A stretch of 39,532 nt of DNA from Bacteroidales bacterium. GTDB lineage: Bacteria > Bacteroidota > Bacteroidia > Bacteroidales > UBA932. Under the pieces are notes generated by a model. That model was given only the letters and a program-made list of their open reading frames with translations. It was not told where the DNA came from and did no database searches. Made by a program: the position numbers and the translations under genes. Of the stretch, positions 507-14,854 are shown piece by piece. The stretch lies in contig JAFXNQ010000006.1 of NCBI GenBank assembly GCA_017529425.1, positions 1 through 39,532 on the forward strand, given 5' to 3'. How positions within the stretch are numbered: position 1 is the stretch's first letter; each line of letters opens with the position of its first letter.

Positions 507-2579
507 ATGAAGAAATACGTAATACTGGCGGCGCTCTCCCTGGCGGCCGCTTTCCAGCCCCTGCGGGCTGACGAAGGGATGTGGCTGCCGGTGCTGATCA
601 CCCAGCGCATCGACGACATGCAGGCGCACGGTTTCCGCCTCACGGCGGAGGATGTGTACAGCGTCAACCAGGCGTCGCTCAAGGACGCCGTGGTGCTGTT
701 CGGCTCCGGCTGCACCGGCGAGGTGGTCTCCCGGAACGGCCTGCTCTTCACCAACCACCATTGCGGCTACAGCCAGATTCAGCAGCACAGCAGCGTGGAG
801 CACGACTACCTCAAGGACGGCTTCTGGGCTTTGTCCCACAGCGAGGAGCTGCCGAACCCGGGGCTGACGGTCAGTTTCCTGGAAAGGATGGAAGAGGTCA
901 CGGACGCGGTGCTGAAGGGCTACGTGCCGACGATGGACGAGGCGCAGCGCGACTCGCTGGTCAAGGTCAACGGCGACGCGATCGTGAAGCAGGTGGCGGA
1001 TCCTTCCAAGGGGATCCGCGCCAGCGTGGAGGCGCTCTATTACGCCAACCAGTATTTCCTTTTCGTGTACAAGGTCTACCGTGATGTACGGCTGGTGGGC
1101 GCTCCGCCTTCGTCGATCGGCAAGTTCGGCGGCGACACCGACAACTGGATGTGGCCCCGCCACACGGGGGACTTCTCCATTTTCCGCATCTATGCGGACA
1201 AGAACAATGAACCGGCTGATTATTCGGAAGATAACGTTCCCTATACGCCAAAGCGCTTTTTCACCATCTCGCGCGCCGGCGTGCAAGAAGGTGACTTCAC
1301 CTTCGTCTACGGCTGCCCGGGCAGCACGAAGGAATACGTGAGCTCCGACGAGGTGCGCTACGTGGGCGAGGTCTCCGATCCGGAGAAGATTGCCCTGCGC
1401 ACGCTGCGCCTCGACATCCAGAAGAAATACATGGCGCAGGACCAGGCGGTCCGCATCCAGTATTCGTCCAAGAACGCCAACGTGGCCAACGCCTGGAAGA
1501 AGTGGCAGGGCGAGTCGAAGGGCATCGCCCGGCTGGGCACCGTCGCCGCCAAGGAAGACTACGAGCGCCGTTTCTCCGCCTGGGCGGCGGGGACGCCCTA
1601 CGCCGGCCTGCCGGAGCGGCTGCATGCCCTGTATGCGCAGCGCAATCCGGTCTACCGGGCCTATGAGTACTATGTCGAGACGGTCCGGACCGTGGAGCTG
1701 CTCCAGTTCGCGAGCAATGTCAAGTCCGCGCTGGATGCCGGCCGCCCGGTGGCGGGGATTGCTGATGCGTTCTTCAAGGACTACTACCAGCCTATCGACG
1801 AGGAGATCTTCGTCGCGATGCTGGATGCCTTCGACAAGCACATGAACGCCGGCTACAAGCCGGAATACTTCCGTCGTCAGCTGGCCGCCTACGGCAGTCC
1901 GGAGGCCTGGCGCGATGCGCTTTACGCGCAGTCGCTCTTCACCGACCCGGCACGCGTGCGGGCGCTGACGCAGGACGACCTGCCTGCCGTCACAGCCGAT
2001 CCCGCCTTTGCGCTGTACGATGCATTCTATCAGTGGTACCGGCAGGAGCTGCAGCCCGTGATCGCCCGGCTGGACCGGGAGATCCGCCTGGCCTACCGCG
2101 ACTACATGCGCGGCCAGATGGCTTTCGAGCCGGACAAGGCCTTCTATCCCGATGCCAACCTGACGCTCCGCGTCGCCTACGGCCACGTGGCGGGCTATTC
2201 TCCTTCGGATGCTGTTTACTATGCGCCCGTGTCCACGCTCAAGGGCATCATGGAGAAGGATAACCCGGAGATCTTCGACTACAACATCCCGCAGGTGCTG
2301 CGCGATATCTATGCTGAAGGGGGACATGACAGCCAGCCGGTCTGCTTCCTGGCCACCAACCATACTTCCGGCGGCAACTCCGGCAGCCCGGTGATCAATG
2401 CCGACGGCAACCTGATCGGCATCAACTTCGACCGGGTGTGGGAGGGGACGATGAGCGACATCGTCTTCGACCCGGACTACTGCCGCAACATCTCGCTGGA
2501 CATCCGCTACCTGCTTTTCGTCGTCCGGGAGGTCGGCCATGCCGACTGGCTGTTCGACGAAATGGTTTTCGCAGACTGA
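507..2579 (+). CDS. S46 family dipeptidyl-peptidase, DPP11-like (Asp/Glu-specific)
   Basis: A secreted serine exopeptidase of about 690 residues, usual for family S46 (DPP7/DPP11), which removes N-terminal dipeptides from oligopeptides in the periplasm. The ATG at 507 is preferred over an in-frame TTG at 501; it gives a signal peptide with a hydrophobic core ending near residue 17 (ALA-type). Visible catalytic residues are His85 in TNHHCGY, Asp222 in PRHTGDF and Ser625 in GGNSGSP. Arg643, in NFDRVWEG 18 residues after the catalytic serine, occupies the S1 specificity position, which in characterised enzymes is Gly in DPP7 and Arg in DPP11. I therefore infer cleavage after acidic P1 residues. 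This is a nutrient-acquisition enzyme typical of Bacteroidota that feed on peptides. It probably belongs to the ancestral backbone left of the island. Confidence 0.93.
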   Translation: MKKYVILAALSLAAAFQPLRADEGMWLPVLITQRIDDMQAHGFRLTAEDVYSVNQASLKDAVVLFGSGCTGEVVSRNGLLFTNHHCGYSQIQQHSSVEHDYLKDGFWALSHSEELPNPGLTVSFLERMEEVTDAVLKGYVPTMDEAQRDSLVKVNGDAIVKQVADPSKGIRASVEALYYANQYFLFVYKVYRDVRLVGAPPSSIGKFGGDTDNWMWPRHTGDFSIFRIYADKNNEPADYSEDNVPYTPKRFFTISRAGVQEGDFTFVYGCPGSTKEYVSSDEVRYVGEVSDPEKIALRTLRLDIQKKYMAQDQAVRIQYSSKNANVANAWKKWQGESKGIARLGTVAAKEDYERRFSAWAAGTPYAGLPERLHALYAQRNPVYRAYEYYVETVRTVELLQFASNVKSALDAGRPVAGIADAFFKDYYQPIDEEIFVAMLDAFDKHMNAGYKPEYFRRQLAAYGSPEAWRDALYAQSLFTDPARVRALTQDDLPAVTADPAFALYDAFYQWYRQELQPVIARLDREIRLAYRDYMRGQMAFEPDKAFYPDANLTLRVAYGHVAGYSPSDAVYYAPVSTLKGIMEKDNPEIFDYNIPQVLRDIYAEGGHDSQPVCFLATNHTSGGNSGSPVINADGNLIGINFDRVWEGTMSDIVFDPDYCRNISLDIRYLLFVVREVGHADWLFDEMVFAD

Positions 2580-2589
2580 GTTTGTGTGT

Positions 2590-4083
2590 ATGAAAGGATT
2601 CGTGTCATATATTCTGGGGTTGTGCCAGAAGAGAGAAGGAACCGAGGTTGAGTTCAAGTCGGCACTCGGCGGTTTTCCGGGCAGCTTCTGGGAGACTTAT
2701 TCTGCCTTTGCGAATACAAAGGGTGGCGTGATTGTGCTTGGCGTGAAGGAGAAGAATCATCGATTCACGCCCGATGGGTTTACGGATGAGCAGGTGGACA
2801 AGTATAAGAAGACATTCTGGGATTGTGCCAATAACAAGGGCAAGGTGAGTCTTTGTCTTCTAATGGATAAGGACGTGATTGAGGGAGAGCTAGATGGGAA
2901 AAAGGTTCTCGTGTTTGTCATTCCTCGTGCTCCTTTCGATGTGAAGCCGGTTTATATCAACGGGAATCCGAATCAAGCATTCAAGCGTAACCATGAGGGA
3001 GATTATCTCTGCACGAAGGACGAGATCAGCCGGATGTTTGCTGATGCGATGGTGCTTACCAACCCGCAGGACAGTCGAATTCTGAAGAACTTTACGCTTG
3101 AGCGTGATTTTGACCAAACCACCATCCGGCAGTACAGGCAGCTATTCCAGATGCGTCATGAAGGCCATGCATGGAATGATCTGGGCGACTTGGAGTTTCT
3201 GCAGCGCCTGGGTGGATACCGGGTGGATCAGGAGTCCGGAGAGAAAGGCTTCACGCTGGCTGGCGTGCTGATGTTCGGTACGGAACTGGCCATCATGGGC
3301 GTAATGCCGCGTTACTTCGTGGACTTCCGGGAGAAGCTCAGCAGCGATCCGAACATCCGTTGGACAGACCGTGTCTATCCGGACGGTATGTGGGAGCCGA
3401 ATCTGTATCAGTTCTATCGCCGTGTCCTGCCCAAGCTTTTCCTTGCGTTACCGACTCCGTTCCAGATGGAGGGTGTATATCGCCAGGATGAGACCACGGC
3501 CCATAAGGCCGTCAGGGAGGCGTTGGTGAACTGTATTGTCCATGCTTCGACACGTCTCTACGAAGGGCCTGTCATTGAACGTTATCCTGACCGGCTGTAT
3601 TTCTCGAATCCGGGGACGATGCTGGTGAGCGTGGAAGACTTCTTCGAAGGTGGCCATAGTATTTGCCGCAACTCGGCCCTCCACAAGATGTTCGAGATGA
3701 TTGGCGGTGGCGAACGTGCTGGTAGCGGAGCTGATACCATCAAGAAAGGCTGGGCCGATAACAAGTGGCCGGCGCCTGAAATCAGGGAACACTTCGGCCA
3801 GAATGATGACCGGGTAGAGTTGACGCTTCGGATCGGTCAGTCCACCAGTTCACCTGGGAAGGGAACTGAAAACGAAGAAATCAGGGTAAAAACCAGGGTG
3901 AAAACTAGGGTGAAAATCAGGGAGATGATGATGGTGAATCCGAAAGTGACAATCCCTGAATTGGCTGCAGAAATCGGAGTTTCGGTCAAAACTATTGAGT
4001 GGCATCTAGCCAAGATGAAAGGTGTTGAAATCGAACGCGAAGGACCTGCTAATGGAGGTTATTGGAGAGTCCTCAAACAGTAA
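2590..4083 (+). CDS. AlbA/Schlafen-domain ATP-binding protein with C-terminal winged HTH
   Basis: About 497 residues. The N-terminal 120 residues match the Schlafen AlbA_2 (AAA_4) DNA-binding domain, with REGTEVEFKSAL, ETYSAFANTKGGVIVLGV and a downstream ISRMFADA segment. The middle contains a HATPase_c_4/RecG-like part (HKAVREALVNCIVHA, then GGGERAGSGADTIKKGW). The last 60 residues form a helix-turn-helix (VTIPELAAEIGVSVKTIEWHLAKM). A longer reading from 2539 would overlap the upstream peptidase; ATG 2590 is chosen because the conserved domain begins right after it. Such proteins are common in defence and accessory islands and are usually called transcriptional regulators or RecG-related, with no settled function. 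Its lower GC than the upstream gene marks the left edge of the island. Confidence 0.85.
   Translation: MKGFVSYILGLCQKREGTEVEFKSALGGFPGSFWETYSAFANTKGGVIVLGVKEKNHRFTPDGFTDEQVDKYKKTFWDCANNKGKVSLCLLMDKDVIEGELDGKKVLVFVIPRAPFDVKPVYINGNPNQAFKRNHEGDYLCTKDEISRMFADAMVLTNPQDSRILKNFTLERDFDQTTIRQYRQLFQMRHEGHAWNDLGDLEFLQRLGGYRVDQESGEKGFTLAGVLMFGTELAIMGVMPRYFVDFREKLSSDPNIRWTDRVYPDGMWEPNLYQFYRRVLPKLFLALPTPFQMEGVYRQDETTAHKAVREALVNCIVHASTRLYEGPVIERYPDRLYFSNPGTMLVSVEDFFEGGHSICRNSALHKMFEMIGGGERAGSGADTIKKGWADNKWPAPEIREHFGQNDDRVELTLRIGQSTSSPGKGTENEEIRVKTRVKTRVKIREMMMVNPKVTIPELAAEIGVSVKTIEWHLAKMKGVEIEREGPANGGYWRVLKQ
3882..3917 (+). repeat. 12-bp tandem repeat, three copies, inside the AlbA-domain gene
   Basis: Three consecutive 12-bp units (CAGGGTAAAAAC, CAGGGTGAAAAC, TAGGGTGAAAAT) encode RVKT, RVKT and RVKI in the linker between the ATPase-like part and the C-terminal helix-turn-helix. 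A fourth, decayed start (CAGGGAG) follows. The unit length is a multiple of three, so copy changes would alter linker length without breaking the frame. Confidence 0.85.
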
Positions 4084-4118
4084 ATACATCGCCGCCATCC
4101 GAGAGGGTGGTGGTATGT

Positions 4119-5240
4119 TTATTGAAGAGATATGAGTTTGCCAATAATCTCATCTGCAAAATGCTCGTCTGTGTGATGCTCAACTAGAAACTTGTGCATT
4201 AATTCCCGGTCCTCCTTGAGATTGGCAGTCCGGATAATACTTGGTTGATTGATACTAAACAGGGAAGAAAGTTTTCCATCTGTCATCTTCTGGAGAGCTC
4301 GTTTAATCTCAATTTTGGAGTTGTTATCACGAGTGAAGATAGTGATGTCTTTTCGTACAGGATTATCATAATCGGCCTGTTTTAGAAAGAAAGGAGCAAA
4401 ATACTGACGGTCATTTTCACCTAACGAATGGCCGAAAATTATCACTTCGTCCGCGTTTTTAAGGGGCGTAACAATATCCGGAGGGGTGAAGGAGTCATCC
4501 ATTGCTTTAAGTAAGAAGTCATACTCCTTTTCCAACGTCATGTCATCCCGTGTGCCGATGATAATCTTTCCGTCCTCGCAGTTGCCGTGCATATAGTGAA
4601 CGGGAATTCCATCCACTTTGTAGCCGCGCATCTGAACACGAGTGTAGTTAAAGGTGAAAATGTCGATAAAGTCACCCGCGTCAACTGTCTTCTTCAATGT
4701 CAAGAGCAAATAAAAGGCTGTGGTGACACTATCTGGAAGGGGCTTTTCGATAGACCTAAGATATTTGCATAGGCCCTCTTTGATGAGTCCCAAGGCTTTG
4801 TGATCACGCCAGCAGGGAGATTCAAGCATATCTTCTTTATAGGGAATTCTCATTATCTTTAGGAGATTATCATCAAAAGTGATGTACCCTTTGTTATATA
4901 GAGATTGCACTTCTTGCTGGAAGTCATTATATGTACCATACTGCCATATTTCCGGCTTGACTTTCTCAAGGAATTTTCTCTCGTATTTTGTGATGACATC
5001 TTCTCTTTTCCCCATCAGCGTCGGATGATTGTAGTAGGCCAACAACTCATTCTCCATATCGTACCACTTGACTGCATCCAGATTGTCAGGCCAACGCTGG
5101 TTCAGATGATGGATGAGCGGGGCTGGATAGTGCTTGGGACAGAACTCAGACTCCCAGAAGTCTTTGTAGGACGTTTTGAGACCGAGATCAAGGTCGAAGC
5201 CGTTGCCGAGGATGACGACTATGTTGCGGGGCTCTACCAT
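4119..5240 (-). CDS. AbiH family abortive-infection protein
   Basis: A 373-residue protein whose N-terminus reads NIVVILGNGFDLDLGLKTSY. The LxGNGFDxxLGLKTxYxxF signature defines the bacteriophage abortive infection AbiH family (PF14253). Also visible are a glycine-rich GTRDDM segment after a HGNCEDG motif and VIIFGHSLGENDRQYF in the C-terminal half, both typical of AbiH. The family was first described on lactococcal plasmids as causing phage-induced death or arrest; the molecular target is unknown. The start ATG is at 5238-5240. It lies convergent to the AlbA-domain gene, with only 35 bases between the two stop codons. Ten bases upstream on the same strand is the stop of a DUF4357 fragment, so it may once have been the second gene of an operon. 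Confidence 0.9.
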   Translation of the reverse strand: MVEPRNIVVILGNGFDLDLGLKTSYKDFWESEFCPKHYPAPLIHHLNQRWPDNLDAVKWYDMENELLAYYNHPTLMGKREDVITKYERKFLEKVKPEIWQYGTYNDFQQEVQSLYNKGYITFDDNLLKIMRIPYKEDMLESPCWRDHKALGLIKEGLCKYLRSIEKPLPDSVTTAFYLLLTLKKTVDAGDFIDIFTFNYTRVQMRGYKVDGIPVHYMHGNCEDGKIIIGTRDDMTLEKEYDFLLKAMDDSFTPPDIVTPLKNADEVIIFGHSLGENDRQYFAPFFLKQADYDNPVRKDITIFTRDNNSKIEIKRALQKMTDGKLSSLFSINQPSIIRTANLKEDRELMHKFLVEHHTDEHFADEIIGKLISLQ

Positions 5241-5250
5241 GCGGCAAATG

Positions 5251-5583
5251 TTATTTGTCTAGTTGTTTTCTATATACTTCATCCAATGTATGGCCATCCT
5301 TGTCTTTCCAGACAATCCATCCATTGTTGCTGCTGCCGATGCAAAAGTCCGCCGCTGTGCTGGGGCTAGAAAAGGTCTTGTCAGATTCCAATTCCAGAAG
5401 GTCTCCTCTTATATTTGTATACTCAGCAAGCAATTTTGCGCGTTTTTCCTTCCAATTAAACGAAGGAACAGACGTGGGGACAATTATGCTACCCTTCAAG
5501 ATGGTGAACCCATTTGCACTATAGAAACCGCGAGCATTACAGCCTCGCCCTTTTGTGTAGAAAAGGTGCTCTTCCTTGGTTCT
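5251..5583 (-). pseudogene. DUF4357 domain remnant (N-terminus missing)
   Basis: The reading frame is open from 5583 to the stop at 5251, but an in-frame TAG at 5584-5586 closes it upstream and no ATG occurs in the stretch; the only non-ATG candidate (TTG at 5499) would cut the domain. The translated piece has FYTKGRGCNARGFYSANGF, then a hydrophobic strand, and ends with SPSTAADFCIGSSNNGW followed by WKDKDGHTLDEVYR. The last part is the DUF4357 pattern, usually found at the C-terminus of GIY-YIG or related nuclease-like proteins of 250 residues or more. I read this as the surviving tail of a longer gene cut by the event that placed the repeats and tRNA at 5600-5911. It could still be translated as an 82-residue protein from the TTG. 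Confidence 0.7.
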
Positions 5584-5609
5584 CTATTCTTTACAGCCCA
5601 TTTAAAAAT

Positions 5610-5674
5610 GGTACTAAAATGGTACTATTTTTAATTTCGCTACTGCTGAAGATGTGCTAAAATTGTACTAAAAT
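5610..5674. repeat. Two copies of a GTACTAAAA-N2-GTACTA type repeat
   Basis: At 5611-5627 and 5655-5674 there are paired TACTAAAA-type half-sites one helical turn apart (GTACTAAAATGGTACTA and GTGCTAAAATTGTACTAAAA). Related pairs lie at 5808-5825 and 38489-38506, each beside a tRNA gene. The spacing suggests protein binding, perhaps integrase arm-type sites of a past element, but this is inference. The stretch 5584-5821 has no gene; it contains only these repeats and the hairpin at 5714. Confidence 0.6.
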
Positions 5675-5713
5675 CTACAGTTTTATGCGTAGATTTCTGC
5701 GTAAAACAATAAA

Positions 5714-5736
5714 GGCGCTGAAATTCAGCGCCTTTT
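5714..5736 (+). terminator. Rho-independent terminator-like hairpin
   Basis: GGCGCTGA (5714-5721) pairs with TCAGCGCC (5725-5732) across a three-base loop and is followed by TTTT. The opposite strand also has a short T-run after the stem, so it could act in both directions. It sits between the DUF4357 remnant and the tRNA, with no obvious + strand gene upstream, so it is probably left over from a lost gene. Confidence 0.6.
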
Positions 5737-5805
5737 GCGGAGCATAGGACACCACCATAAACCATTTTCTACGAACTTATGTAGCTAGCTAGTTCTTTCT
5801 TGATA

Positions 5806-5821
5806 ATGTACTAAAAGTGTA
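5806..5821 (+). repeat. 16-bp repeat, copy 1 (second copy at 38487)
   Basis: ATGTACTAAAAGTGTA occurs here, directly against the 5' end of the tRNA, and again in the same orientation at 38487-38502 near tRNA-Ala. The two copies bracket most of the accessory DNA. They could be remnants of attachment sites or just shared binding motifs. Confidence 0.6.
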
Positions 5822-5911
5822 TTAGGGGTGGTCGAGTGGCTGAAGACGCTGGTCTAAGAAACCAGTAAGCCCTTAAGCAAGGCTTCAGGGGTTCGAATCT
5901 CCTTCTCTGAA
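5822..5911 (+). tRNA. Class II tRNA, anticodon AAG (Leu by anticodon), atypical
   Basis: It folds as a class II tRNA: acceptor TTAGGGG/TCTCTGA (fully paired, but with three G-U pairs and a U1-A72 end), D-stem GTC/GAC, anticodon stem CTGGT/ACCAG with loop CTAAGAA, long variable arm AAGCC/GGCTT, T-stem AGGGG/CTCCT with TTCGAAT loop, discriminator A. The anticodon AAG would read CUU/CUC leucine codons. The D-arm (GTCGAGTGGCTGAAGAC) looks like bacterial tRNA-Ser rather than tRNA-Leu, which usually has GGAANTGGTAGAC. CCA is not encoded. It may be an element-borne or decaying tRNA. The flank up to 6048 holds only a promoter region. Confidence 0.75.
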
Positions 5912-5997
5912 AAATACTTACTATCTTTTTATCGCACTTCCATCGGTCCGAAATGAGGAATTAGCGCATTTTGTTATGCTTGTTTTTGCGGAATATC

Positions 5998-6025
5998 GCA
6001 TTTTAAAAAGAAAATGCTATCTTTG
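5998..6025 (+). promoter_or_regulatory. Promoter -7 box with adjacent palindrome upstream of the AAA ATPase
   Basis: TATCTTTG at 6018-6025 matches the Bacteroidota -7 consensus TAnnTTTG, 24 bases before the ATG at 6049. Immediately upstream is a perfect inverted repeat, GCATTTT-N6-AAAATGC (5998-6017), lying in the spacer where a repressor would block the polymerase. A further GCGCATTTT half-site lies about 33 bases upstream. No clear -33 box is seen at the usual spacing. Confidence 0.5.
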
Positions 6026-6048
6026 TCGTAGTTAAAAGATGTTTTGCT

Positions 6049-7329
6049 ATGGACTTGTACGACATTGTCCGGATACTCACGGACCAGAAAAAGGAACTTG
6101 ATAAGATAAACATCAAAACGCTTTGCCCGCGCAAGGAGGAGAGTCAGTTTGAATTGGATAGTCCTTTGGCGCAGGTTGTCATCGGCGTCCGGCGAAGCGG
6201 AAAATCCATGCTTTGCTTGAAGTCCCTGATACAGTCTGGGAAAAAATTTGGTTATGTGGATTTTGATGATGAAAATCTCGAAGGCCTCGGACGGAGTGAT
6301 CTCAACACTGTTCTAGAAGCTGCCTATATGGTCTATGGTGATTTTGATTACCTATTTTTGGACGAGGCGCAGAACGTAGATGGGTGGCATCTGTTTGTAA
6401 ACCGGCTACTCCGCCAGAAGATGCACATTGTGCTTACGGGGTCCAACGCAAAACTTCTCAGTTCGGATCTGTCCACCCACCTGACTGGCCGCTATAACGA
6501 GATCACGCTTTACCCCTTCTCTTTCGAAGAGTACTGTATCATGAAGTATTTGGATCCGAAAGACCTGTCCACGAAGAACCAGGCGTTCATCAAGGTCGCC
6601 TTTGACGAGTACCTCCGCAATGGTGGATTTCCGGAGACGTTCAACCTAAAAAACCGACAGGGGTATGTCACATCTTTGATGGATGCCATCATTAAGAAGG
6701 ATATTGCCAAACGGTTCAGAATCCGCTACGGAGATGCTCTTAGAAAGATGACCAATTATTTGGTGGACAACTTCTGCCAAGAGGTTGTGTATACAACGCT
6801 GGCAGACCTGTTCGGCTTTGGCTCAGATCATACGGCCGAAAACTATTACTCCTATTTGAAACAGGCATTCCTGCTTCAAGGAATCAACAAGTTCTCGTTC
6901 AAGAGTGCTGAAAGAATAAGGGGCGAAAAAGCCTATATTGTTGATGTTGCCTTCCAGTCCGACCGGGAAAGCACGCTCACCACTGAGAATTTGGGCTATA
7001 GGATGGAGAACATCGTATATATTGAGTTGTTGTGGCGCTACAAAAAAGAAAACTTGGATGTCTTCTACTACAAAGATGGCTATGAGATAGATTTCGTCGT
7101 GGTGGACAAGACCAAGATTCTGGAGCTTATCCAGGTCACTTACAGGATGGATACGACGAAGACAAGAAACCGCGAGTTGGGCGGCCTTGCAAAAGGCTCC
7201 GCTCAATTTAAATGTAATAAACTCACTTTGATTACTTTGAATGAACGGGGGCAGGAAATGTATAACGGATCGAATATAAAGAAGGTGACTATCGTTGATT
7301 GGCTCCTGGGCAATGATTTATTAGATTAA
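6049..7329 (+). CDS. AAA ATPase with C-terminal DUF4143
   Basis: A 426-residue protein of the AAA_14/DUF4143 family. Walker A is GVRRSGKS (residues 46-53); Walker B is YLFLDEAQN (about 101-109), followed by WHLFVNRLLRQ and the sensor-like VLTGSNAKLLSSDLSTHLTGRY. The C-terminal half (from about 215) contains DUF4143 with FCQEVVYTTLADLFG and the nuclease-like ending YYKDGYEIDFVV followed by ELIQVTY. The EIDFVV...ELIQV segment resembles the E/D-x-D...E/Q-xQ core of a restriction-endonuclease fold, a common view of this domain. Family members are widespread in Bacteroidota genomes and islands with no assigned role. It is transcribed alone from the promoter at 6018. Confidence 0.9.
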   Translation: MDLYDIVRILTDQKKELDKINIKTLCPRKEESQFELDSPLAQVVIGVRRSGKSMLCLKSLIQSGKKFGYVDFDDENLEGLGRSDLNTVLEAAYMVYGDFDYLFLDEAQNVDGWHLFVNRLLRQKMHIVLTGSNAKLLSSDLSTHLTGRYNEITLYPFSFEEYCIMKYLDPKDLSTKNQAFIKVAFDEYLRNGGFPETFNLKNRQGYVTSLMDAIIKKDIAKRFRIRYGDALRKMTNYLVDNFCQEVVYTTLADLFGFGSDHTAENYYSYLKQAFLLQGINKFSFKSAERIRGEKAYIVDVAFQSDRESTLTTENLGYRMENIVYIELLWRYKKENLDVFYYKDGYEIDFVVVDKTKILELIQVTYRMDTTKTRNRELGGLAKGSAQFKCNKLTLITLNERGQEMYNGSNIKKVTIVDWLLGNDLLD

Positions 7330-7346
7330 TTAACCTGAACTACATA

Positions 7347-7360
7347 CTACTGAACAGTAG
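7347..7360. other. Short perfect inverted repeat between the ATPase and recombinase stops
   Basis: CTACTG-AA-CAGTAG lies in the 49-base gap between two convergent genes. There is no T-run directly after it, so it is a weak terminator at best. It could also be a binding site for the adjacent recombinase. Confidence 0.35.
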
Positions 7361-7378
7361 ATAGACAATCTCCCCTTT

Positions 7379-8305
7379 CTATAGTCGCGCACGCGGGTGG
7401 CGATTCATTAGGATCTCGCGCTGCCGTTTTGGGTTGACATGCAGGTAAATCTGTGTTGTTGCGATGGAGCTATGCCCCAGAATGTGCTGAATATACGCCA
7501 CATCTACATCTTCTTCCAGCAGGAGAGAGGCGAAAGTGTGCCGGAACATGTGCGGCGTCACATTCTTCCTGATATCACATTTACGTGCCAAGTCGTGAAC
7601 CATCGCGCGAACAGATTGCGTGGCAAGCCCATTTCCAAGACGATTTGTGAAGACGGCATCAGTTGCTCGCGAGCCGGATGGCCGGACAGTCATCCATGCC
7701 CGCAAAGCGGCCAAGGCCTCAGCGGGACAAATATCGACAATCCGCTCCTTGTCCCCTTCCCCATGAATGCGCACCCGGCCTTCCGCTAAATCGACGTCTT
7801 CATTTTTCAACCGACACAACTCTCCAATACGCATCCCTGTGCAGAATAATAACTCAACCACGGCCCAGTCCCTCACGCAAATGTATCTTTTCTGCCTTTT
7901 AGCTCCAATCGTCCCCGCTTCTCGCTCCAGATGCGCCAACATCCGCTTCACTTCAGAACCGCTCATCACCCGCGGCAACGTCTCCGGTCGCTTAATCTTA
8001 ACCTGCATTCTCCGAAAAGGATTTTCGAAAGAAGCACAAGCACATTCCAGATAATGCATGAAAGACATCAACGAAGCCACCTTACGTTTAACTGTCCGAG
8101 GTTTATAATGCGCCAGGCTTCCCAGCCATGCTTTCATACACTCCTGCGAGACCTCTCGCAAAGGAGGATCTCCTCCAACCACCGTAGCGAATTGCTCCAA
8201 ATCCACCCGATAAGCCGAAATCGTCTTTTCATCCAACTCCCGTTCGAATCGACAATGACGGATGTACTCCTCCGTCGCCGCTGAGATCATTGATTCCTGT
8301 TCCAT
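7379..8305 (-). CDS. Tyrosine recombinase (XerC/D-type), candidate DNA invertase
   Basis: A 308-residue phage integrase-family recombinase. The N-terminal SAM-like core-binding domain covers about residues 8-90. The catalytic domain has Arg159 (CTGMRIGELC), His252 and Arg255 (HMFRHTFAS), His278 (LGHSS) and the nucleophile Tyr287 (TQIYLHV), so it looks intact. Its size and lack of an extra arm-binding domain fit XerC/D-like enzymes, including Bacteroides recombinases that flip local DNA segments, better than large ICE integrases. The start codon ends at 8305. Only 44 bases away is the left copy of a 31-bp inverted repeat (8350-8380), whose partner lies at 10068-10098. I infer that this enzyme inverts the segment between them. 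Confidence 0.93.
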   Translation of the reverse strand: MEQESMISAATEEYIRHCRFERELDEKTISAYRVDLEQFATVVGGDPPLREVSQECMKAWLGSLAHYKPRTVKRKVASLMSFMHYLECACASFENPFRRMQVKIKRPETLPRVMSGSEVKRMLAHLEREAGTIGAKRQKRYICVRDWAVVELLFCTGMRIGELCRLKNEDVDLAEGRVRIHGEGDKERIVDICPAEALAALRAWMTVRPSGSRATDAVFTNRLGNGLATQSVRAMVHDLARKCDIRKNVTPHMFRHTFASLLLEEDVDVAYIQHILGHSSIATTQIYLHVNPKRQREILMNRHPRARL

Positions 8306-8349
8306 AATCTAATCCTGTTTTTCGCAGTATACGATATTTTAAAGAAAGG

Positions 8350-8380
8350 AACTAATGATAATAACTAATTATGGATAATA
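8350..8380. repeat. Left arm of 31-bp inverted repeat
   Basis: The 31 bases here match the reverse complement of 10068-10098 with a single mismatch (T8356 against C at the equivalent place), including 24 consecutive identical bases (8357-8380). The repeat covers the last 21 bases of the leader plus ATGGATAATA, the first codons (Met-Asp-Asn) of the gene at 8371. The core contains GATAATAACTAATTATGG. Confidence 0.95.
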
Positions 8381-9366
8381 TGGAGTTTCAACATTTATTC
8401 GAAATTAAACGGTATCAAGGTGAGAAGACTTTTAAGAACGATTTTAACGAGGCTCTTAATATTTATATTTCTGAAACACCTGCGGCAATTAAGACTAGTT
8501 CAAATGAACTGGTTAGTTGGATAGCGAAACCAAGACAAGGACCATTCCAAGTACTGTTGTTTATTCTGTACTGCGAACATACTGTAGCTGGGTTTGCAAT
8601 GCTTACCTTTCATCAACAAATAAAGGTGATGTCATATGAATATGTGGCAATAAAGAATACATTCTCATCATTTGCATCATATTTCGCATATCTTGATTTA
8701 ATTAATAGATATGTAGTTGAAACAGGAATAGATGTGCTTTACTGGATAACAGAAATTAATAACAAGAATAGAGGGAAAGACGTTGATAAGGAAAGCACCT
8801 TGTTTAAGAAACTACTTTGCATGAATCAATTTGGAAAGTTGGATGCTTACTATAAAACGTTTCCTTTAGGCATGGTTGAGGATACCTCGTTTGATGCTAT
8901 TCTATACTTAAAAACCAATGATCGAATCCGTCAGATAGGCGTTGATACTTACCTGAAGATTGTAACATCTATTAAAAACTACTACAATTCTTGGTATCGT
9001 TGTTTCATGACATCAGATGAATATAATCAATATGAAAGTTTGACTCAACAGATACAAGAGCAGATAAATAATAAAGTTTCCAACTTACATGAGGTATCAG
9101 TTTCTTATATAGATTGTCCTTTAATTACACCGGAAGAAAAGATTCATACAGAGTTAATGCCTAAAGTTGAGTCGCAACGTCGCCTATGGTGGCATCTTCC
9201 GCTTGTTCTAATTGGCATTATTATTATTTCTGTTATTCTAACTTTTGCTTTTATTGTCATTTTTCGGATATTTGACCTTGAATTATCGAACGTGTCAATA
9301 ATATTGGCCAGCACAACGTCAGCGTTAATAACTTCTTATATTGCATGGAGAAATAACAAGAAATAA
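8371..9366 (+). CDS. GNAT-like protein with two C-terminal membrane segments
   Basis: 331 residues. I do not recognise a named family. The N-terminal 180 residues have a layout suggestive of an acetyltransferase (GNAT) fold: IYISETPAAI, hydrophobic strands FQVLLFILYCEHTVAGFAML and VMSYEYVAIKNTFSS, and helix YFAYLDLINRYVVE followed by strand DVLYWITEIN. A polar helical linker (about 215-265) with MTSDEYNQYESLTQQIQEQ follows. Two membrane helices end the protein: about 273-298 (LPLVLIGIIIISVILTFAFI) and about 307-326. A soluble domain tethered to the membrane by paired C-terminal helices is common among defence effectors, but that role is inference. The gene is AT-rich. No good -7 box was found in 8306-8349, so in the present orientation it may be silent. 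Its first codons lie in the inverted repeat. Confidence 0.75.
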   Translation: MDNMEFQHLFEIKRYQGEKTFKNDFNEALNIYISETPAAIKTSSNELVSWIAKPRQGPFQVLLFILYCEHTVAGFAMLTFHQQIKVMSYEYVAIKNTFSSFASYFAYLDLINRYVVETGIDVLYWITEINNKNRGKDVDKESTLFKKLLCMNQFGKLDAYYKTFPLGMVEDTSFDAILYLKTNDRIRQIGVDTYLKIVTSIKNYYNSWYRCFMTSDEYNQYESLTQQIQEQINNKVSNLHEVSVSYIDCPLITPEEKIHTELMPKVESQRRLWWHLPLVLIGIIIISVILTFAFIVIFRIFDLELSNVSIILASTTSALITSYIAWRNNKK

Positions 9367-10077
9367 CTACTTCTCACAAAGAAGAATAAGATTACAGCCC
9401 TGTTTCCTTAAAAAAGGCAAAAAAAACGAGAGGGAATCAAATTTAGCATAGAACGCAGCATCATCTTCACTTTTCCCATAATGGAACGCTAGGGTAGATA
9501 ATACGTGGAAGAAATGCTCTTTGCATATTGATAGGCCAAACTGTTTGATTATTGTTTTAATATACCGCGGAGAATAGACCCAAATCTTATGTGGCTCACC
9601 TTGATATGTCGTTATGACAATGTGTGCATCTGCTGAATGTGCAGGCGTATTTAGGTATTCAAAAGACTTGCTACTTTCAAATTCGAGTATTAGCTTTCCC
9701 TTTGGACGTAGAACTCTGGATAATTCTGAAAGGGCTGCAATTGCGTCACAGTAATTCAAGACACTCCCTACACAGATTACTCCATCAAAAGTATTGGAAT
9801 CAAAAGGCAGATTCTCAATATTCGCTACAGTATAATGAGGCTTATTATTGATTTTGTTCTCTGCGATATCAACATAATGAACGGTTCCTTTAATGTCATA
9901 ATCTGTGTCGCCACAACCCGCATTTAATACATAATCGCCTTCATTGAATGGATGTCTAGAAATAAACCGTGAAATCTCTTCTCTCGTGTGCTGATACCAA
10001 GGCTCATTATTAGGCCATACACTTTTGACGTTATTATAATATTTGGCGACATCTTCTGGCTCAATCTTATTATCCAT
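9367..10077 (-). CDS. Class I SAM-dependent methyltransferase
   Basis: 236 residues of the Methyltransf_11 type. Motif I is VLNAGCGDTDYD (about 46-57), an acidic residue ends strand 2 (HYVDIAEN), and motif II is IENLPFDSNTFDGVICVGSVLNY, typical of small-molecule methyltransferases. RVLRPKGKLILEFES is the post-II motif. The substrate cannot be told. The start ATG at 10075-10077 lies inside the right inverted-repeat arm and encodes Met-Asp-Asn, the same first residues as the convergent gene at 8371. It follows the radical SAM gene by 84 bases on the same strand, so in this orientation it is probably the third gene of the TcmP operon. Confidence 0.88.
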   Translation of the reverse strand: MDNKIEPEDVAKYYNNVKSVWPNNEPWYQHTREEISRFISRHPFNEGDYVLNAGCGDTDYDIKGTVHYVDIAENKINNKPHYTVANIENLPFDSNTFDGVICVGSVLNYCDAIAALSELSRVLRPKGKLILEFESSKSFEYLNTPAHSADAHIVITTYQGEPHKIWVYSPRYIKTIIKQFGLSICKEHFFHVLSTLAFHYGKSEDDAAFYAKFDSLSFFLPFLRKQGCNLILLCEK

Positions 10078-10098
10078 AATTAGTTATTATCGTTAGTT
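10068..10098. repeat. Right arm of 31-bp inverted repeat
   Basis: Reverse complement of 8350-8380 with one mismatch. On the - strand it contains the leader and the ATG plus two codons of the methyltransferase gene. Similarity stops sharply on both sides, which is expected for a recombination site and not for two homologous genes. Confidence 0.95.
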
Positions 10099-10161
10099 TG
10101 TTAATGCAAATGAGAATACGAAAGCGTACTTAATGTTTCAGCACAGTTCGGAACAAGGCTC

Positions 10162-10962
10162 TTACTTGTCTTCGCCTTTCTTGGTGGAAATCTCCAAGCC
10201 GACTACTTTTTTGATACTCTCTTTCCATTTGATTTTGGGGTTGTCCTTGTATGCTTCATACAAGCTTAGGATAGCACTGTCTGATTGCCAAAAGAGAAGC
10301 TGCTCTGCTGCATTTCTCATTTGTGGATTCAGGTGTCCATTTGCGTTTAGGCGTCGAAGAAGAAAGTTCATTTTTCCCAGCCATATTGCGTCAGTGACAT
10401 ATTCTGATAAGTCGTTAATTAAAGCACTAACTTGATCGTCAAGCATCGGCTCGCAAGAAATACTAGTTTTGAATCCCGCGTTATAGGCATAGATTAAAGA
10501 TTGTTTACGTTCAGCATAACACGGCGCATTCGGTTCCCATAGACGCAATGTCTCTGAATTGATAGAGCCTATTGTGAAACGGAAGAGGATTCGATCCTTA
10601 AAATCCCCCAAGGCATTACATAGGTGTTCAATGCATTGGAAAGAGGGCTTGGTCACAATTAAGACCGTGTTGTCATTATTAAGCAACCGCAAGATATAAT
10701 CCAAAGCGAGCCCTAGGTGCTCGGGCGTAATGTCATGAGTTGAAGGAAACATAATGTACCCGTCTTTGTGACGAATGTTTCTATAGAAAGCGGGCCAGTT
10801 CACCACCTCGTCTTTCCATGAATCAACTGTTTTTCTCTTGAATCGAATCGCCATTTCTTTGCTGTAACAATACTTGCAATCATTGCTACAGCCATTTAGG
10901 TAATTTGCATTGGCAACAGCCCATTCTGTTGTCCCAAAGACGTGTTTATTTATACTAGACAT
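10162..10962 (-). CDS. Three-Cys-motif (Gp37/Gp68, DUF5131-like) radical SAM protein
   Basis: With the ATG at 10962 the protein has 266 residues and starts one base after the TcmP stop; earlier ATGs at 10995 and 10989 would overlap TcmP. The cluster motif is GCSNDCKYCYSKEMA with Cys25, Cys29 and Cys32, the CxxxCxxC of radical SAM enzymes. MFPSTHDITPEH and LIVTKPS strands and the ISCEPMLDD segment match the Gp37/Gp68 (PF07505) family, first seen in phages. These proteins occur next to TcmP partners, as here. The reaction is unknown; a relation to spore-photoproduct-lyase-like radical enzymes has been suggested for the fold. The neighbourhood suggests a nucleic-acid or defence role, but this is inference. 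Confidence 0.85.
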   Translation of the reverse strand: MSSINKHVFGTTEWAVANANYLNGCSNDCKYCYSKEMAIRFKRKTVDSWKDEVVNWPAFYRNIRHKDGYIMFPSTHDITPEHLGLALDYILRLLNNDNTVLIVTKPSFQCIEHLCNALGDFKDRILFRFTIGSINSETLRLWEPNAPCYAERKQSLIYAYNAGFKTSISCEPMLDDQVSALINDLSEYVTDAIWLGKMNFLLRRLNANGHLNPQMRNAAEQLLFWQSDSAILSLYEAYKDNPKIKWKESIKKVVGLEISTKKGEDK

Positions 10963-10963
10963 T

Positions 10964-11896
10964 TTAAAACAATGAGCCTTGTCCGACATAATCATATTTG
11001 GTCGCTTTATTCCAGAACTCTAATCCTTTTTGACTTTGGGAGGCAAATAGAATGTAGTAATAGTTCTCAACAGATTCATTTGCGAAGAAAGCGAATCCAA
11101 TCGAATTTAGTTTTTGTTCATAAGACGACAGAAAAGCCCTTCTCAGATCTTTATCTGAATCATTTTTATGTATTCTCTCATAGAAATGATTATCTCCCAA
11201 AAATGAACAATACTTCTGTATAGTGCGTGTATACTGTGCGGGTTGAAGAAGTGTATTCCTGATATTTCTATTATAATCAGTCCCCACGGCAACATTAATA
11301 AGTAAATCCATTCGTGGGATGGTGCGTTTTATACATGCAATGGAATCAAAAGGGACGCTACAATCGGTGGGGTCAATTACAACAAGATTAAGGCTATCTC
11401 GAGATAATTCTGTCCGTAAAACAGAGCAAATAGTTTCCGGGTTAGTGTAGTCGCCAATGAAAGCTTTTGCATTTATGGCATTGATTGATGAAAGACGCTG
11501 ATTAAGGGTAGATACTACAAGTTCATTAATGTCAAAGAACAAGGCTTTATTGACATATTTAAACTCATCTCTATTAACAATACTTAAAGCGGTTCCATCA
11601 AATTCGGTACGCTCGCTTCGATTAACACATTTGCCCGGTCCACTGCAAATCTCAATATAATTTATCTTCCCTTTCCATTTAATTGACATGCCTTGTGCGA
11701 AGATGCCAAAATACTGAGTTAAAAGATATATTTTTTTCTCCGCCCATTCACCAACACATCTGATGGGTAGGCCGTCAAAAACTGAACTAGTGATGCTGCA
11801 GACATCAGATTCTGCGATCTTGTGCCTGTCATCTCTATTACACCCACCAATACATTGTGGGTTATTAACGTAGTTGCATTGATACCTATTAGGCAT
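10964..11896 (-). CDS. tcmP: Three-Cys-motif partner protein TcmP
   Basis: 310 residues. The Cys-rich N-terminus has Cys7, Cys15 and Cys19 (QCIGGCNR), followed by the partner-family segment LPIRCVGEWAEKKIYLLTQYF. The central part looks like a Rossmann methyltransferase: YIEICSGPGKC (motif I), ALFFDINE (acid at the end of strand 2), FIGDYTNPE and VVIDPTDCSVPF (motif IV-like). This is the TcmP family, defined as the obligate partner of three-Cys radical SAM proteins, which indeed follows immediately downstream. It is the first gene of the - strand operon, with a -7 box (TAACTTTG) at 11933-11940. Confidence 0.88.
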   Translation of the reverse strand: MPNRYQCNYVNNPQCIGGCNRDDRHKIAESDVCSITSSVFDGLPIRCVGEWAEKKIYLLTQYFGIFAQGMSIKWKGKINYIEICSGPGKCVNRSERTEFDGTALSIVNRDEFKYVNKALFFDINELVVSTLNQRLSSINAINAKAFIGDYTNPETICSVLRTELSRDSLNLVVIDPTDCSVPFDSIACIKRTIPRMDLLINVAVGTDYNRNIRNTLLQPAQYTRTIQKYCSFLGDNHFYERIHKNDSDKDLRRAFLSSYEQKLNSIGFAFFANESVENYYYILFASQSQKGLEFWNKATKYDYVGQGSLF

Positions 11897-11932
11897 TTTT
11901 TATTGTCTTAGTAATGCAATTCTTCCTAGGTA

Positions 11933-11940
11933 CAAAGTTA
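11933..11940 (-). promoter_or_regulatory. -7 box of the TcmP operon
   Basis: On the - strand TAACTTTG matches the TAnnTTTG consensus and lies 36 bases before the tcmP ATG. No convincing -33 box is visible at the usual distance. The rest of the 244-base divergent gap to 12141 is AT-rich without other clear signals. Confidence 0.5.
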
Positions 11941-12140
11941 GTAATATTCAGTATCATTCATATTAATAATGCAAACAAAGAATGGGAATAGGTTTTGCGA
12001 CGAAGAGTAATCAATTCAGAAGAGCAGGCCACATTATGAAGATAGAAAGGAAACACATTCGCGGTTGTTTTGCTGCGAATAACACATCGTTAATTTTTTT
12101 TGCGGTTCTCTGGCTTCAACATGTCTTAACTGTCTTTTGA

Positions 12141-13136
12141 ATGGAGTCGCGTATTGCCTTCACACAAACAACTAAAAGATTCAATTGTCCGGTTAAAAGA
12201 GAATTTATATCTTTGTATGACATGAATAGTTTGTCATTGATGTCACACGAAGAATTAATAGAAAACATTTGGAAAAGTGAGTTTGATGGTTTATTTTTGC
12301 ACCATCTGAAACAAGCATTGGAAGATGAAAACTTTGCGCTCAACAGATTGGGCTCAAATAGAGCGGCGTTACGAGGCTTACAAAACGGCTCTCGTCTACA
12401 TGTCGCAGCATCCATTATCGCACAAAGAGGCGGTTGCACAGGCTCAGAGACTTCATTATCAAGTGACAGCCTCGGCTTCCAGTATCTAATTCAAGAGTTA
12501 TTAATAGAATCGTGGGCAAAGCATAATAATTGCTGGATTGCCCCCACGGAGTCTTTTCTTCAAGAGAGATATGGCGATAGAATTGGCTCTGGGAGCGAGT
12601 CTGTTGTGTATCAGGACGGGAAGGATGTTGTTAAAGAATGGAAGACATATAAATATGAATCTATTCAACTAGCCCTTGATAGGATCACGATTCATAATGC
12701 TGTATTTCCTGAAACCTCTCTTAAAGTTGAAGGATTTGGTAGGACACGTGCTGGCGATTTCGCGATACTTGTTCGTCAACCATTTATCCATATTAATGGT
12801 GAATTGGTATCTGATAAAGAGGTAATTGATTATATGCATAGTATCGGTTTCGGAGAAACTCATGGGTTTGGTGGGCACAACCCTCGTGTTCATTCAGACT
12901 ACTTGAACTCTGATTTCTACATCGCGGATCTTCATAAAGAGAATATTGTACGTTTTGTTGATCCTTCTGGGCATGCTTTCTTCTTTGTAATAGACTGCAT
13001 GGCATACTTTAATACGCCTGGCTTAGGATTGGGTGGTTCGTTTCTAATACATAATCCGGAAGTGTGGGCTTACAAGAGCGAGAATGAATGGCCATATGCT
13101 ATCCGTTCAAATGATAAACCATTGCATTATTTGTAA
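12141..13136 (+). CDS. Polyvalent-protein-kinase-like domain protein
   Basis: 331 residues. The C-terminal two thirds look like the 'putative polyvalent protein kinase' domain: a glycine loop IGSGSESVVY (148-157), a lysine in VVKEWK (about 165), LHNAVFPET-like IHNAVFPETSLKVEGFG, and a catalytic-loop-like FYIADLHKENIV with Asp and Asn at kinase spacing, followed by FVIDCMAYF in place of DFG. Such domains were described in long polyvalent proteins of phages and conjugative elements. The N-terminal 120 residues are of unknown family and contain a long helical stretch. The ATG at 12141 is the first in frame, but Met28 or Met34 are possible. It marks the right end of the AT-rich island; the next gene starts five bases after its stop. 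Confidence 0.65.
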   Translation: MESRIAFTQTTKRFNCPVKREFISLYDMNSLSLMSHEELIENIWKSEFDGLFLHHLKQALEDENFALNRLGSNRAALRGLQNGSRLHVAASIIAQRGGCTGSETSLSSDSLGFQYLIQELLIESWAKHNNCWIAPTESFLQERYGDRIGSGSESVVYQDGKDVVKEWKTYKYESIQLALDRITIHNAVFPETSLKVEGFGRTRAGDFAILVRQPFIHINGELVSDKEVIDYMHSIGFGETHGFGGHNPRVHSDYLNSDFYIADLHKENIVRFVDPSGHAFFFVIDCMAYFNTPGLGLGGSFLIHNPEVWAYKSENEWPYAIRSNDKPLHYL

Positions 13137-13141
13137 TTAGA

Positions 13142-14854
13142 ATGAAGACTCAACGATACATATATCATCTGTCCGCGCTGATTACAGTTGTATCTATTTT
13201 AGCGGCCTGCGGCCCGTCATCAAAGCAGCGCGTGGCGGCGACGTTGGATGATGTCGAAACCTACATCAACGATCGCCCCGACAGCGCCCTGGTGGTGCTG
13301 GAGGGCGTGGACTCCACGGCCCTGAGCACCCGCGCCCTGCGGGCCCGGTACTCGCTACTGCACACGATGGCGCTGGACAAGTGCTACAAGGATATCACGG
13401 CACCCGGCCTGCTGGATCCGGCTGTTGCGTGGTATGAGAATCACGGTACGGCCGACGAGAAAATGAAAACTCTTTTTTACCAAGGGCGAATCGCACAAGA
13501 GAAAAAGGAGTGGAATAATGCTTCGGTTCGCTATTATCAAGCAGAAGGGTATGCGGATGAAGCGCAAGATAGGCATGCCGCCGGATTGTTGTATGAGGCG
13601 ATGTCCAGTATTTATAATTTTGTTCATAATACTGAAAAGGAACAGGAGTATGTAGAGAAAGCCCTGAGGACCTACAAGCAAGCGAGTGATCCGTTTTACG
13701 AATCCGCGCTGGGCGACTTGGCCATTGTGTATCATTCCCGGCAGGAGTGGGCTAAGGCAGATTCTCTATACCAAGTGGCCATTGCGCACTCGAAAGAATA
13801 CCCGCATTCTCTGGCAATCTATCTCTCCAACTATGGCCGGATGAAGGTCTTGCAGCCGGAGGAGGACCCTGTGGGCGCGCTGGCGGTGTTGAATCAGAAA
13901 AGACAGATATCTGGTAGTTTGACACCCGAGGAGGCTGGAGCCTATGCTTATGCTCTGGTGCTTTGCGGGAGGCATCGTGAAGCAAAGGAGATTCTGGACC
14001 AGTTAGCACAACTAACGACAGCATCTTTGGGATCGGTTGAGGCTTGGATTTGTCGATGCGCTCTCGCTACCGGTGATTATCAGCGAGCATACGAGTCACA
14101 GCGAAAGGCCCGTTTGTGGGAAGAGTCAGAATTAAGAAGAATCTTGTCCGATCCTGTTTCGGGAGCTATTACTGAGTATCAGGAAATGCTCTCTATCCAG
14201 AGGCGGATGCAATATAAGGTCAGATTATCTGTTTTGGTGATTATCCTGCTTGTATTATGTTTTGCTTTTGCCTTGGTATATATAAGGAAAAACAAACTGG
14301 AGGCAGACAAATCCCGGATGCTGGAAATATGTTCCATTTTGGAGAAGGAAGCGTCTGAGCATGAGACTCGAACAGCCGTTCTTCAAGAGCAGTTGCATAA
14401 CATTCAGGAAGCAGCAAGACAGGAACGGGTATTTCGCTTCCGGCAGACAGGGAGGCTTCAGGCTGCGATTTGGCATCTGAACCGCACCGGAGAATCCTGG
14501 ATTAAGAAAGATTCTCGCCTGATATCTATCAAAGAGGAACTGTGCCAGATATACGATATAGATGATTCCGGAGAGAAACTGGTCCGGCGACTGGACCGGG
14601 ATCTGGACGGAAAGATCATACCATTGGTCGAGGTGTTGCATCTTAAGGATAACCCGAATGAGCAGCTCTTCTTGTGTTGCTGCTTACTGGACCTTCCCGC
14701 AGAAATGGTGGCGGCGAGATTCAATCTGACAAGCAATAACGTCCGTGTCAAAAAACACCGTCTTAAAGACCAGATTGCGAGATTGAACAATGCAGATTAT
14801 GATGCGTTGTTTGATATACGTAGAAAAGGCATTACAGATTCCTGCTCCGGATAA
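13142..14854 (+). CDS. Membrane-anchored TPR protein with C-terminal HTH (candidate regulator)
   Basis: 570 residues. It has a lipoprotein-like signal peptide with lipobox LAAC (Cys about 23), tetratricopeptide helices over about residues 35-350 (for example MKTLFYQGRIAQEKKEW and EYVEKALRTYKQA), a transmembrane segment at about 360-382, a coiled-coil stretch (about 385-430) and a C-terminal helix-turn-helix (LDLPAEMVAARFNLTSNNVR, about 515-535) like sigma region 4 or LuxR. Bacteroidota carry many such TPR-TM-HTH proteins next to beta-propeller/peptide operons, which fits the genes downstream. I infer a signal-sensing regulator that could bind the operators at 14972, 24333 and 35310. The start ATG is five bases after the kinase-like gene; its own promoter is not evident and may have been displaced by the island. 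Confidence 0.8.
   Translation: MKTQRYIYHLSALITVVSILAACGPSSKQRVAATLDDVETYINDRPDSALVVLEGVDSTALSTRALRARYSLLHTMALDKCYKDITAPGLLDPAVAWYENHGTADEKMKTLFYQGRIAQEKKEWNNASVRYYQAEGYADEAQDRHAAGLLYEAMSSIYNFVHNTEKEQEYVEKALRTYKQASDPFYESALGDLAIVYHSRQEWAKADSLYQVAIAHSKEYPHSLAIYLSNYGRMKVLQPEEDPVGALAVLNQKRQISGSLTPEEAGAYAYALVLCGRHREAKEILDQLAQLTTASLGSVEAWICRCALATGDYQRAYESQRKARLWEESELRRILSDPVSGAITEYQEMLSIQRRMQYKVRLSVLVIILLVLCFAFALVYIRKNKLEADKSRMLEICSILEKEASEHETRTAVLQEQLHNIQEAARQERVFRFRQTGRLQAAIWHLNRTGESWIKKDSRLISIKEELCQIYDIDDSGEKLVRRLDRDLDGKIIPLVEVLHLKDNPNEQLFLCCCLLDLPAEMVAARFNLTSNNVRVKKHRLKDQIARLNNADYDALFDIRRKGITDSCSG

Follow-up and report, generated by a model that had tools for sequence, protein, structure and literature searches.

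This locus raises the question of what a long inverted repeat, laid over the start codons of two convergent and unrelated genes, is doing beside the gene of a tyrosine recombinase. It lies in a stretch of 39,532 nucleotides from a Bacteroidales bacterium (contig JAFXNQ010000006.1), which was analysed whole and is called the window here. The left arm of the repeat (8350..8380, forward strand) carries the core GATAA-TAACTAA-TTATG, the ATG of which is the start codon of a GNAT-like gene, and the right arm (10068..10098, reverse strand) has the identical core and spacer. Across their 31 nt the arms show one mismatch, and none within the inner 24 nt. A chance origin was rejected by 200 dinucleotide shuffles of positions 5000-14000, in which the best inverted repeat per shuffle scored at most 17 (mean 12.8) against 28 for the observed one. 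The repeat is also the top inverted repeat of the whole window (next best, 14), and no further copy of the arm was found in the 2.17-Mb genome with up to three mismatches. Coordinates, shuffles, and genome search together confirm the first-pass annotation, which had described a 31-bp repeat with one mismatch across two start codons. The gene content, which includes Peptidase S46, DUF5128, and a weak BT3442-family match, points to Bacteroidota.

The forward gene (8371..9366) encodes a GNAT-like protein of 331 aa with a C-terminal membrane segment predicted from its sequence, and the reverse gene (9367..10077) encodes a class I SAM methyltransferase of 236 aa (PF08241, 1.1e-11); both have homologues at the loci that we designate L025, L026, and L077. 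The two genes abut tail to tail, their start codons are covered by the arms, and both proteins begin with M-D-N. Homology between the two genes as the source of the repeat was rejected, since similarity stops at the site; the earlier claim that the repeat is not gene homology was right, and the repeat is explained by a conserved 17-bp site with, in the window, the ATG in its inner arm. What lies between the arms is thus a pair of complete ORFs, each beginning within an arm, which sets the segment apart from a promoter inverton. For the GNAT-like protein of the window, no Pfam match above cut-off was obtained, and a single-sequence fold was too poor to use (mean pLDDT 42). Its label is a putative and indirect one, taken from the Aliarcobacter homologue (L026), in which PF00583 stands just over cut-off (21.9 versus 20.7 bits).

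The recombinase (7379..8305, reverse strand, 308 aa) starts 44 bp from the left arm and matches PF00589 at 3.3e-40, a family suited to site-specific inversion. Residues R159, H252, R255, H278, and Y287, which we take to be the catalytic residues of a tyrosine recombinase, are invariant in an alignment of 22 rows, which upholds the initial description of this gene as a tyrosine recombinase with its catalytic residues in place. It scores 231.7 of 335.15 and 220.3 of 329.6 bits against the XerC and XerD equivalog models, and 112.8 bits against a cut-off of 265 for the integron integrase model TIGR02249, so that neither identity applies. In a tree of 55 recombinases, 33 of cassette type, that of the window included, fall on one side of a single branch with support of 99/96. 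Complete repeat pairs accompany 27 of these clade members (the layout at L128 being shufflon-like), a contig end at or near the site accompanies five (L064, L081, L084, L114, and L126), and one, L118, has neither; no core-bearing repeat was found there, which we count against our preferred explanation. No repeat pair was found for the partial recombinases L129 and L130. At about 2110-2260 of L130, a single site is followed, by eye, by the apparent start of a truncated ATP-grasp gene.

Relatives of the recombinase were sampled from several collections. Among the 30 matches listed from 242 plasmid records, six new ones (L053-L058) were examined, chosen for being Aliarcobacter, Streptococcus, or Paenibacillus, with rows of about 30-34% identity (e.g., Listeria) left out, and two of the 18 matching phage records were examined. 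A close relative was present in 5 of 392 other genomes of the order, 8 of 394 of the class, and 6 of 334 of the phylum, at E limits of up to 1e-42 (order) and up to 1e-50 (class and phylum), in overlapping samples, for which rates are not pooled. Each of the 19 loci is situated at a site, 15 with a complete pair and 4 with a contig stop at or near it. Further members are L117, on a phage-labelled gut scaffold, and L125, L127, and L128 from IMG/VR.

Comparison of these loci brought out a site code. The core [G/A]ATAA-N7-TTA(T), read from outside to inside, is present in both arms of 29 of 29 pairs from 28 loci, the window included, and the seven-base spacer is the same in both arms of every one of the 29 pairs, as expected of two inverted site copies with a matching crossover spacer in an inversion system. 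Spacers vary by locus: TAACTAA in the window, TAAATTG in the streptococci, TAGGATA in L026 and L054, and CTAAATA in five Bacteroidota loci. An operator palindrome was rejected on this pattern, as the spacers match within loci but not between them. In the window, L067, and others, the inner arm contains the start codon, which is otherwise mostly within about 25 bases, and the sites enclose 1.6-5.6 kb of coding DNA. The 29 pairs were hand-picked from ranked lists as the top rank of each locus, except for L112 (second rank) and an extra second pair at L066; the 28 loci include L051 and L056, near-copies of L025 and L055, and the count does not extend to L128, with its different layout, L118, L129, or L130. 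Core-bearing repeats were found at 0 of 20 more distant Xer-type recombinases of the same genus, own genome included, where base composition differs, and at 0 of 74 more distant integrases of viral contigs, some of these loci being short; exact site patterns also had no match in viral contigs.

Three loci depart from the simple arrangement. L066 holds two cassettes with different spacers at one locus (1486-3444 and 7344-10936), one pairing a glycosyltransferase with a 244-aa protein and the other a GT2 plus a 345-aa protein with one of 563 aa. In the viral contig L128 (9326-12695), the same core occurs in a 39-nt repeat, the right arm of which lies inside a 554-aa ORF, in what looks like a shufflon-like use. 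At L112 (8127-9918), four nested inverted repeats lie between the sites with no inside ORF of at least 120 aa, which may be a collapsed or unusual cassette.

The gene pair of the window has counterparts on plasmids of other phyla. A tblastn search of plasmids with the GNAT-like protein returned three records, two near-identical Streptococcus salivarius plasmids (L025 and L051) and an Aliarcobacter faecis plasmid (L026), and all three share one gene trio, a tyrosine recombinase with a convergent GNAT-like/methyltransferase pair. The A. faecis methyltransferase as query matched these three records alone at 1e-8. Identities to the window proteins in L025 and L026 are 29% and 23% for the GNAT-like protein, 37% and 39% for the methyltransferase, and 33% and 38% for the recombinase, and in both loci an inverted repeat at the two start regions ranked first in an exact-seed search. 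Closer to the window, the GNAT-like protein found only itself and one 48-residue match with an internal stop (E 8e-4) in 393 genomes of the order, its profile found only itself in 296 genomes of the phylum, and single-sequence patterns found no relatives of it or of the neighbouring TcmP in genome contigs. It had no match in phages, nor, as single sequence or profile, in viral contigs, and the methyltransferase profile likewise had none in viral contigs. The methyltransferase matched in 69 of 149 genomes of the family, its own included, all other matches being weak (best 2.3e-8).

Homologous pairs are found either way round, as judged by which of the two genes adjoins the recombinase. In the window and L026 this is the GNAT-like gene, in L025 and L077 the methyltransferase; in L053 it is STAND, in L054 and L065 ATP-grasp with or without YbaK; in L058 it is STAND, in its relative L125 ATP-grasp; and in L068 and L113 it is Mrr-STAND, in L079 glycosyltransferase. 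The contrast is found within each layout, with the recombinase divergent (window versus L025) or co-directional (L026 versus L077). The opposite orientation, which the first-pass annotation had proposed to look for in related genomes, is thus found among homologous pairs of three cassette classes, in each case between relatives. Within the genome of the window, and among strains of the same species, the opposite orientation was not observed, and the near-identical plasmid pairs L025/L051 and L055/L056 show one orientation each, which we count against flipping.

Assembly breaks fall at the site in four draft genomes (G937, G917, G636, and G218) and the viral contig L126. In G937, contig C25 stops with the final base of the site, and contig C7 of G917 starts two bases before it, the exact site being single-copy in both assemblies. 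In G636, contigs C68 and C46 each terminate in the same 36-nt arm. In G218, the end of contig C8 coincides with the inner end of an arm; the twin of this arm adjoins the recombinase on C2, a contig that itself breaks off 106 bases further inward. Such forks are expected from assemblers where both orientations are present, several copies or low coverage being possible causes as well. Overall, the proposal that inversion keeps the leader and start codon and swaps the coding bodies gains support from the two orientations and from the breaks at the site, and inversion is well supported as a reading of the differences between loci.

Cassettes are traded as well. Near-identical streptococcal plasmids with the same sites carry unrelated cassettes, at 99% identity outside and about 50% inside. 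Outside the sites, plasmids L055 and L057 are 99.2% identical over 250 bp to the left and 99.8% over 1000 bp to the right; inside, the site and about nine bases are common, beyond which identity over 200-base stretches drops to about 50%, and the site is all that blastn found the two cassettes to have in common. L026 and L054 agree at 97.6% over 900 bp on the recombinase side and at 91.4% over 1300 bp on the other side, around unrelated cassettes. Sister recombinases are thus found with different cassettes, and the four loci that have a GNAT-like/methyltransferase pair are spread across the recombinase tree. Near-identical plasmids with unrelated cassettes between the same sites indicate that cassettes are exchanged as well as flipped.

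We consider it likely that the window belongs to a family of invertible and exchangeable two-gene cassettes that are flipped and swapped by a dedicated tyrosine recombinase. Comparison establishes the site, the recombinase clade, the two orientations, and the replacement of cassettes, and from these we infer that this recombinase would catalyze both inversion and exchange. It would act on two inverted 17-bp sites, each with 5-bp dyad arms around a 7-bp spacer in which strands would be exchanged; these sites either cover the start codons of the two convergent genes or lie immediately 5' of them. Intramolecular recombination would turn the cassette, so that the gene lying after the transcribed flank would be expressed, and recombination between molecules with matching sites would replace one cassette with another. 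In the window as it now stands, the methyltransferase would perhaps be the expressed gene, behind the TcmP and radical-SAM genes. Alternation of expression between the two genes is likewise a presumed consequence, on which the promoter scans were indecisive. With the Bacteroidota promoter consensus, the methyltransferase side of the window gave a match inside the radical-SAM gene (reached by 6 of 200 shuffles), and a perfect match, equalled in 0 of 200 shuffles, was obtained on the far side of L068. In L055 and L026, sigma-70 sites were no more numerous than in shuffles.

The cargo is diverse, and much of it sets an enzyme against a protein of another kind. Convergent pairs of ATP-grasp and STAND-like ATPase were found in L053, L054, and L058, a serine-hydroxymethyltransferase-like enzyme versus a STAND-TPR protein in L057, a polyprenyl synthetase versus a membrane protein in L055 and L056, and a glycosyltransferase with Mrr-STAND in L068, L113, and L079. 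The enzyme side is often a methyltransferase, an ATP-grasp protein with or without YbaK, a glycosyltransferase, a prenyl enzyme, or a PLP enzyme, and also includes spermidine-synthase-like and lycopene-cyclase-like proteins; the opposite side is often a STAND protein, an Mrr-STAND ATPase, a GNAT-like membrane protein, a pentapeptide-repeat or transporter-like protein, or one without a Pfam match. L065 has an extra cassette gene (4071-5204) with a weak AbiC match (PF16872, under cut-off), and a GNAT gene also accompanies its ATP-grasp side. L117 carries a SIR2-STALD/TIR pair, in which the first protein matches the ThsA model at 2.7e-97 over 14-466 of 468 and the TIR protein matches ThsB at 3.1e-7, weaker than its PDC-S66 match at 4.4e-13.

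This pair bears directly on a different reading, in which the locus is an exchange platform for two-gene units, both genes being transcribed, from either side, and the sites serving to swap units with inversion as a by-product. Whole cassettes are indeed replaced at one locus, and homologous pairs keep together as units. Thoeris is expected to need both genes in one cell, so the ThsA/ThsB-like pair of L117 counts against alternation, and the promoters, with none consistently on one cassette side over 26 loci, fit transcription from either flank. Against this reading, both genes always face inward from the site, so that a flip changes what lies behind each flank; moreover, the best promoter match on the GNAT-side flank of the window is reached by 194 of 200 shuffles, which is weak evidence. 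We regard such a platform as unlikely, though deserving to be kept in view beside the cassettes flipped and swapped by their own recombinase.

The surroundings of the window cassette gave rise to a second alternative. A radical-SAM-like gene (10162..10995, reverse strand; PF04055 1.4e-6, just under cut-off) is co-directional with the methyltransferase gene, and TcmP (10964..11896, reverse strand) is the first gene of the upstream operon, with 82.1 bits against a TIGR04474 cut-off of 53 and a PDC-M41A match of 1.3e-11, so that a TcmP system (PADLOC candidate PDC-M41) adjoins the cassette. The first-pass annotation had proposed that the cassette and TcmP form one system, as the phase-variable third component of a TcmP-radical SAM operon. 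The methyltransferase gene, on the same strand and 84 bp behind the radical-SAM gene, and a perfect -7-like box upstream of TcmP (a score equalled by 15 of 200 shuffles) would suit this version. It is not supported at the level of the family: no relative of the window TcmP or radical-SAM protein was found in the stretches of 33 other loci (phmmer, E 1e-4), and the recombinase, site, and gene pair recur without these neighbours. TcmP and the radical-SAM gene are local neighbours outside the conserved module, and we regard the one-system version as very improbable. Static repeats, whether an operator with a regulatory function or what a single integration left behind, with no active inversion site, are barely credible: the core is indeed short, AT-rich, and dyad-symmetric, and the genome of the window showed no movement, but the spacer is the same within a locus and differs between loci, as the crossover rule demands, and both orientations, contig ends at the site, and cassette replacement speak against immobility.

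The cassette of the window is set among AbiH, Schlafen-like, and PADLOC candidate-defence genes. These comprise a Schlafen AlbA_2 protein (2539-4083), AbiH (4119-5240; PF14253, 1.9e-26), and an AAA_14/DUF4143 protein (6049-7329; PADLOC PDC-S01, 2.2e-94); on the other side lie a Kinase-PolyVal protein (12141-13136; PF18762, 2.3e-29) and then a TPR protein (13142-14854). At L115, a TIR-like ORF (7272-7733, by eye) lies just outside the cassette. PADLOC matches of the other STAND-type proteins tested were absent or weak and give no help to a defence reading. The cassettes may nevertheless have a role in conflict, such as phage defence. A bolder extension, possible though doubtful, is a cross-phylum system of flipping cassettes, in which a clade with its own site code (GATAA-N7-TTAT, with the spacer as address) would flip and trade cartridges, many of them pairing a small-molecule or glycan enzyme with a sensor or effector (STAND, Mrr-STAND, SIR2, or GNAT-membrane). 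A clone would then split into modifier or signal cells and responder cells, like mating-type cassettes, in conflict with phages or rivals.

Several known systems resemble these cassettes in part, and no such cassette family was described among the matches listed from open-licence PMC papers (preprints not included). In the G segment of phage Mu and the C segment of P1, with Gin and Cin, invertible alternative genes are read from a fixed outside promoter; those systems use serine recombinases on tail-fibre genes, whereas here tyrosine recombinases serve unrelated enzyme and effector pairs. Integrons likewise combine a tyrosine recombinase with exchangeable, promoterless cargo, but here two inverted sites enclose a convergent gene pair. 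Promoter invertons of Bacteroidota mostly turn a short promoter segment, whereas the DNA between the sites here is 1.6-5.6 kb of coding sequence. Site-specific inversion, probably in the same phylum, is common to both (for such invertons, PMC11892184). In Streptococcus pneumoniae, the tyrosine recombinase PsrA inverts coding DNA of hsdS at inverted repeats and reshuffles homologous specificity genes (excerpts of PMC7096588 and PMC4948785), whereas here two unrelated genes are exchanged whole. The nearest analogue is in Ureaplasma, where inversion at short inverted repeats drives the alternate expression of two oppositely oriented neighbour genes at mba (UU375/UU376) and UU172/UU171 (excerpts of PMC3047005). 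Unlike the cassettes here, these loci encode surface antigens of a single genus, with an N-terminal coding part that stays fixed, and the excerpts of PMC3047005 report neither cassette exchange nor an adjacent recombinase. The UU172 sequence printed there contains GATAA-N6-TTATC, with six rather than seven bases between the arms, which is a lead only. Site-specific inversion of alternative genes is thus a known kind of event, and what is added here is whole-cassette exchange across phyla.

Such a family would add a class of mobile device in which phase variation by reversible inversion is joined to integron-like cargo trading, the recombination site being merged with the start region, which would make either cargo gene readable from a fixed flank. 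Its predictions are testable in plasmids of cultured Streptococcus salivarius. A large part of the cargo is similar to defence genes, the Thoeris-like pair among it, and the site motif and recombinase clade would therefore offer a direct route to new conflict systems, and to the question of why the two halves of such systems face each other.
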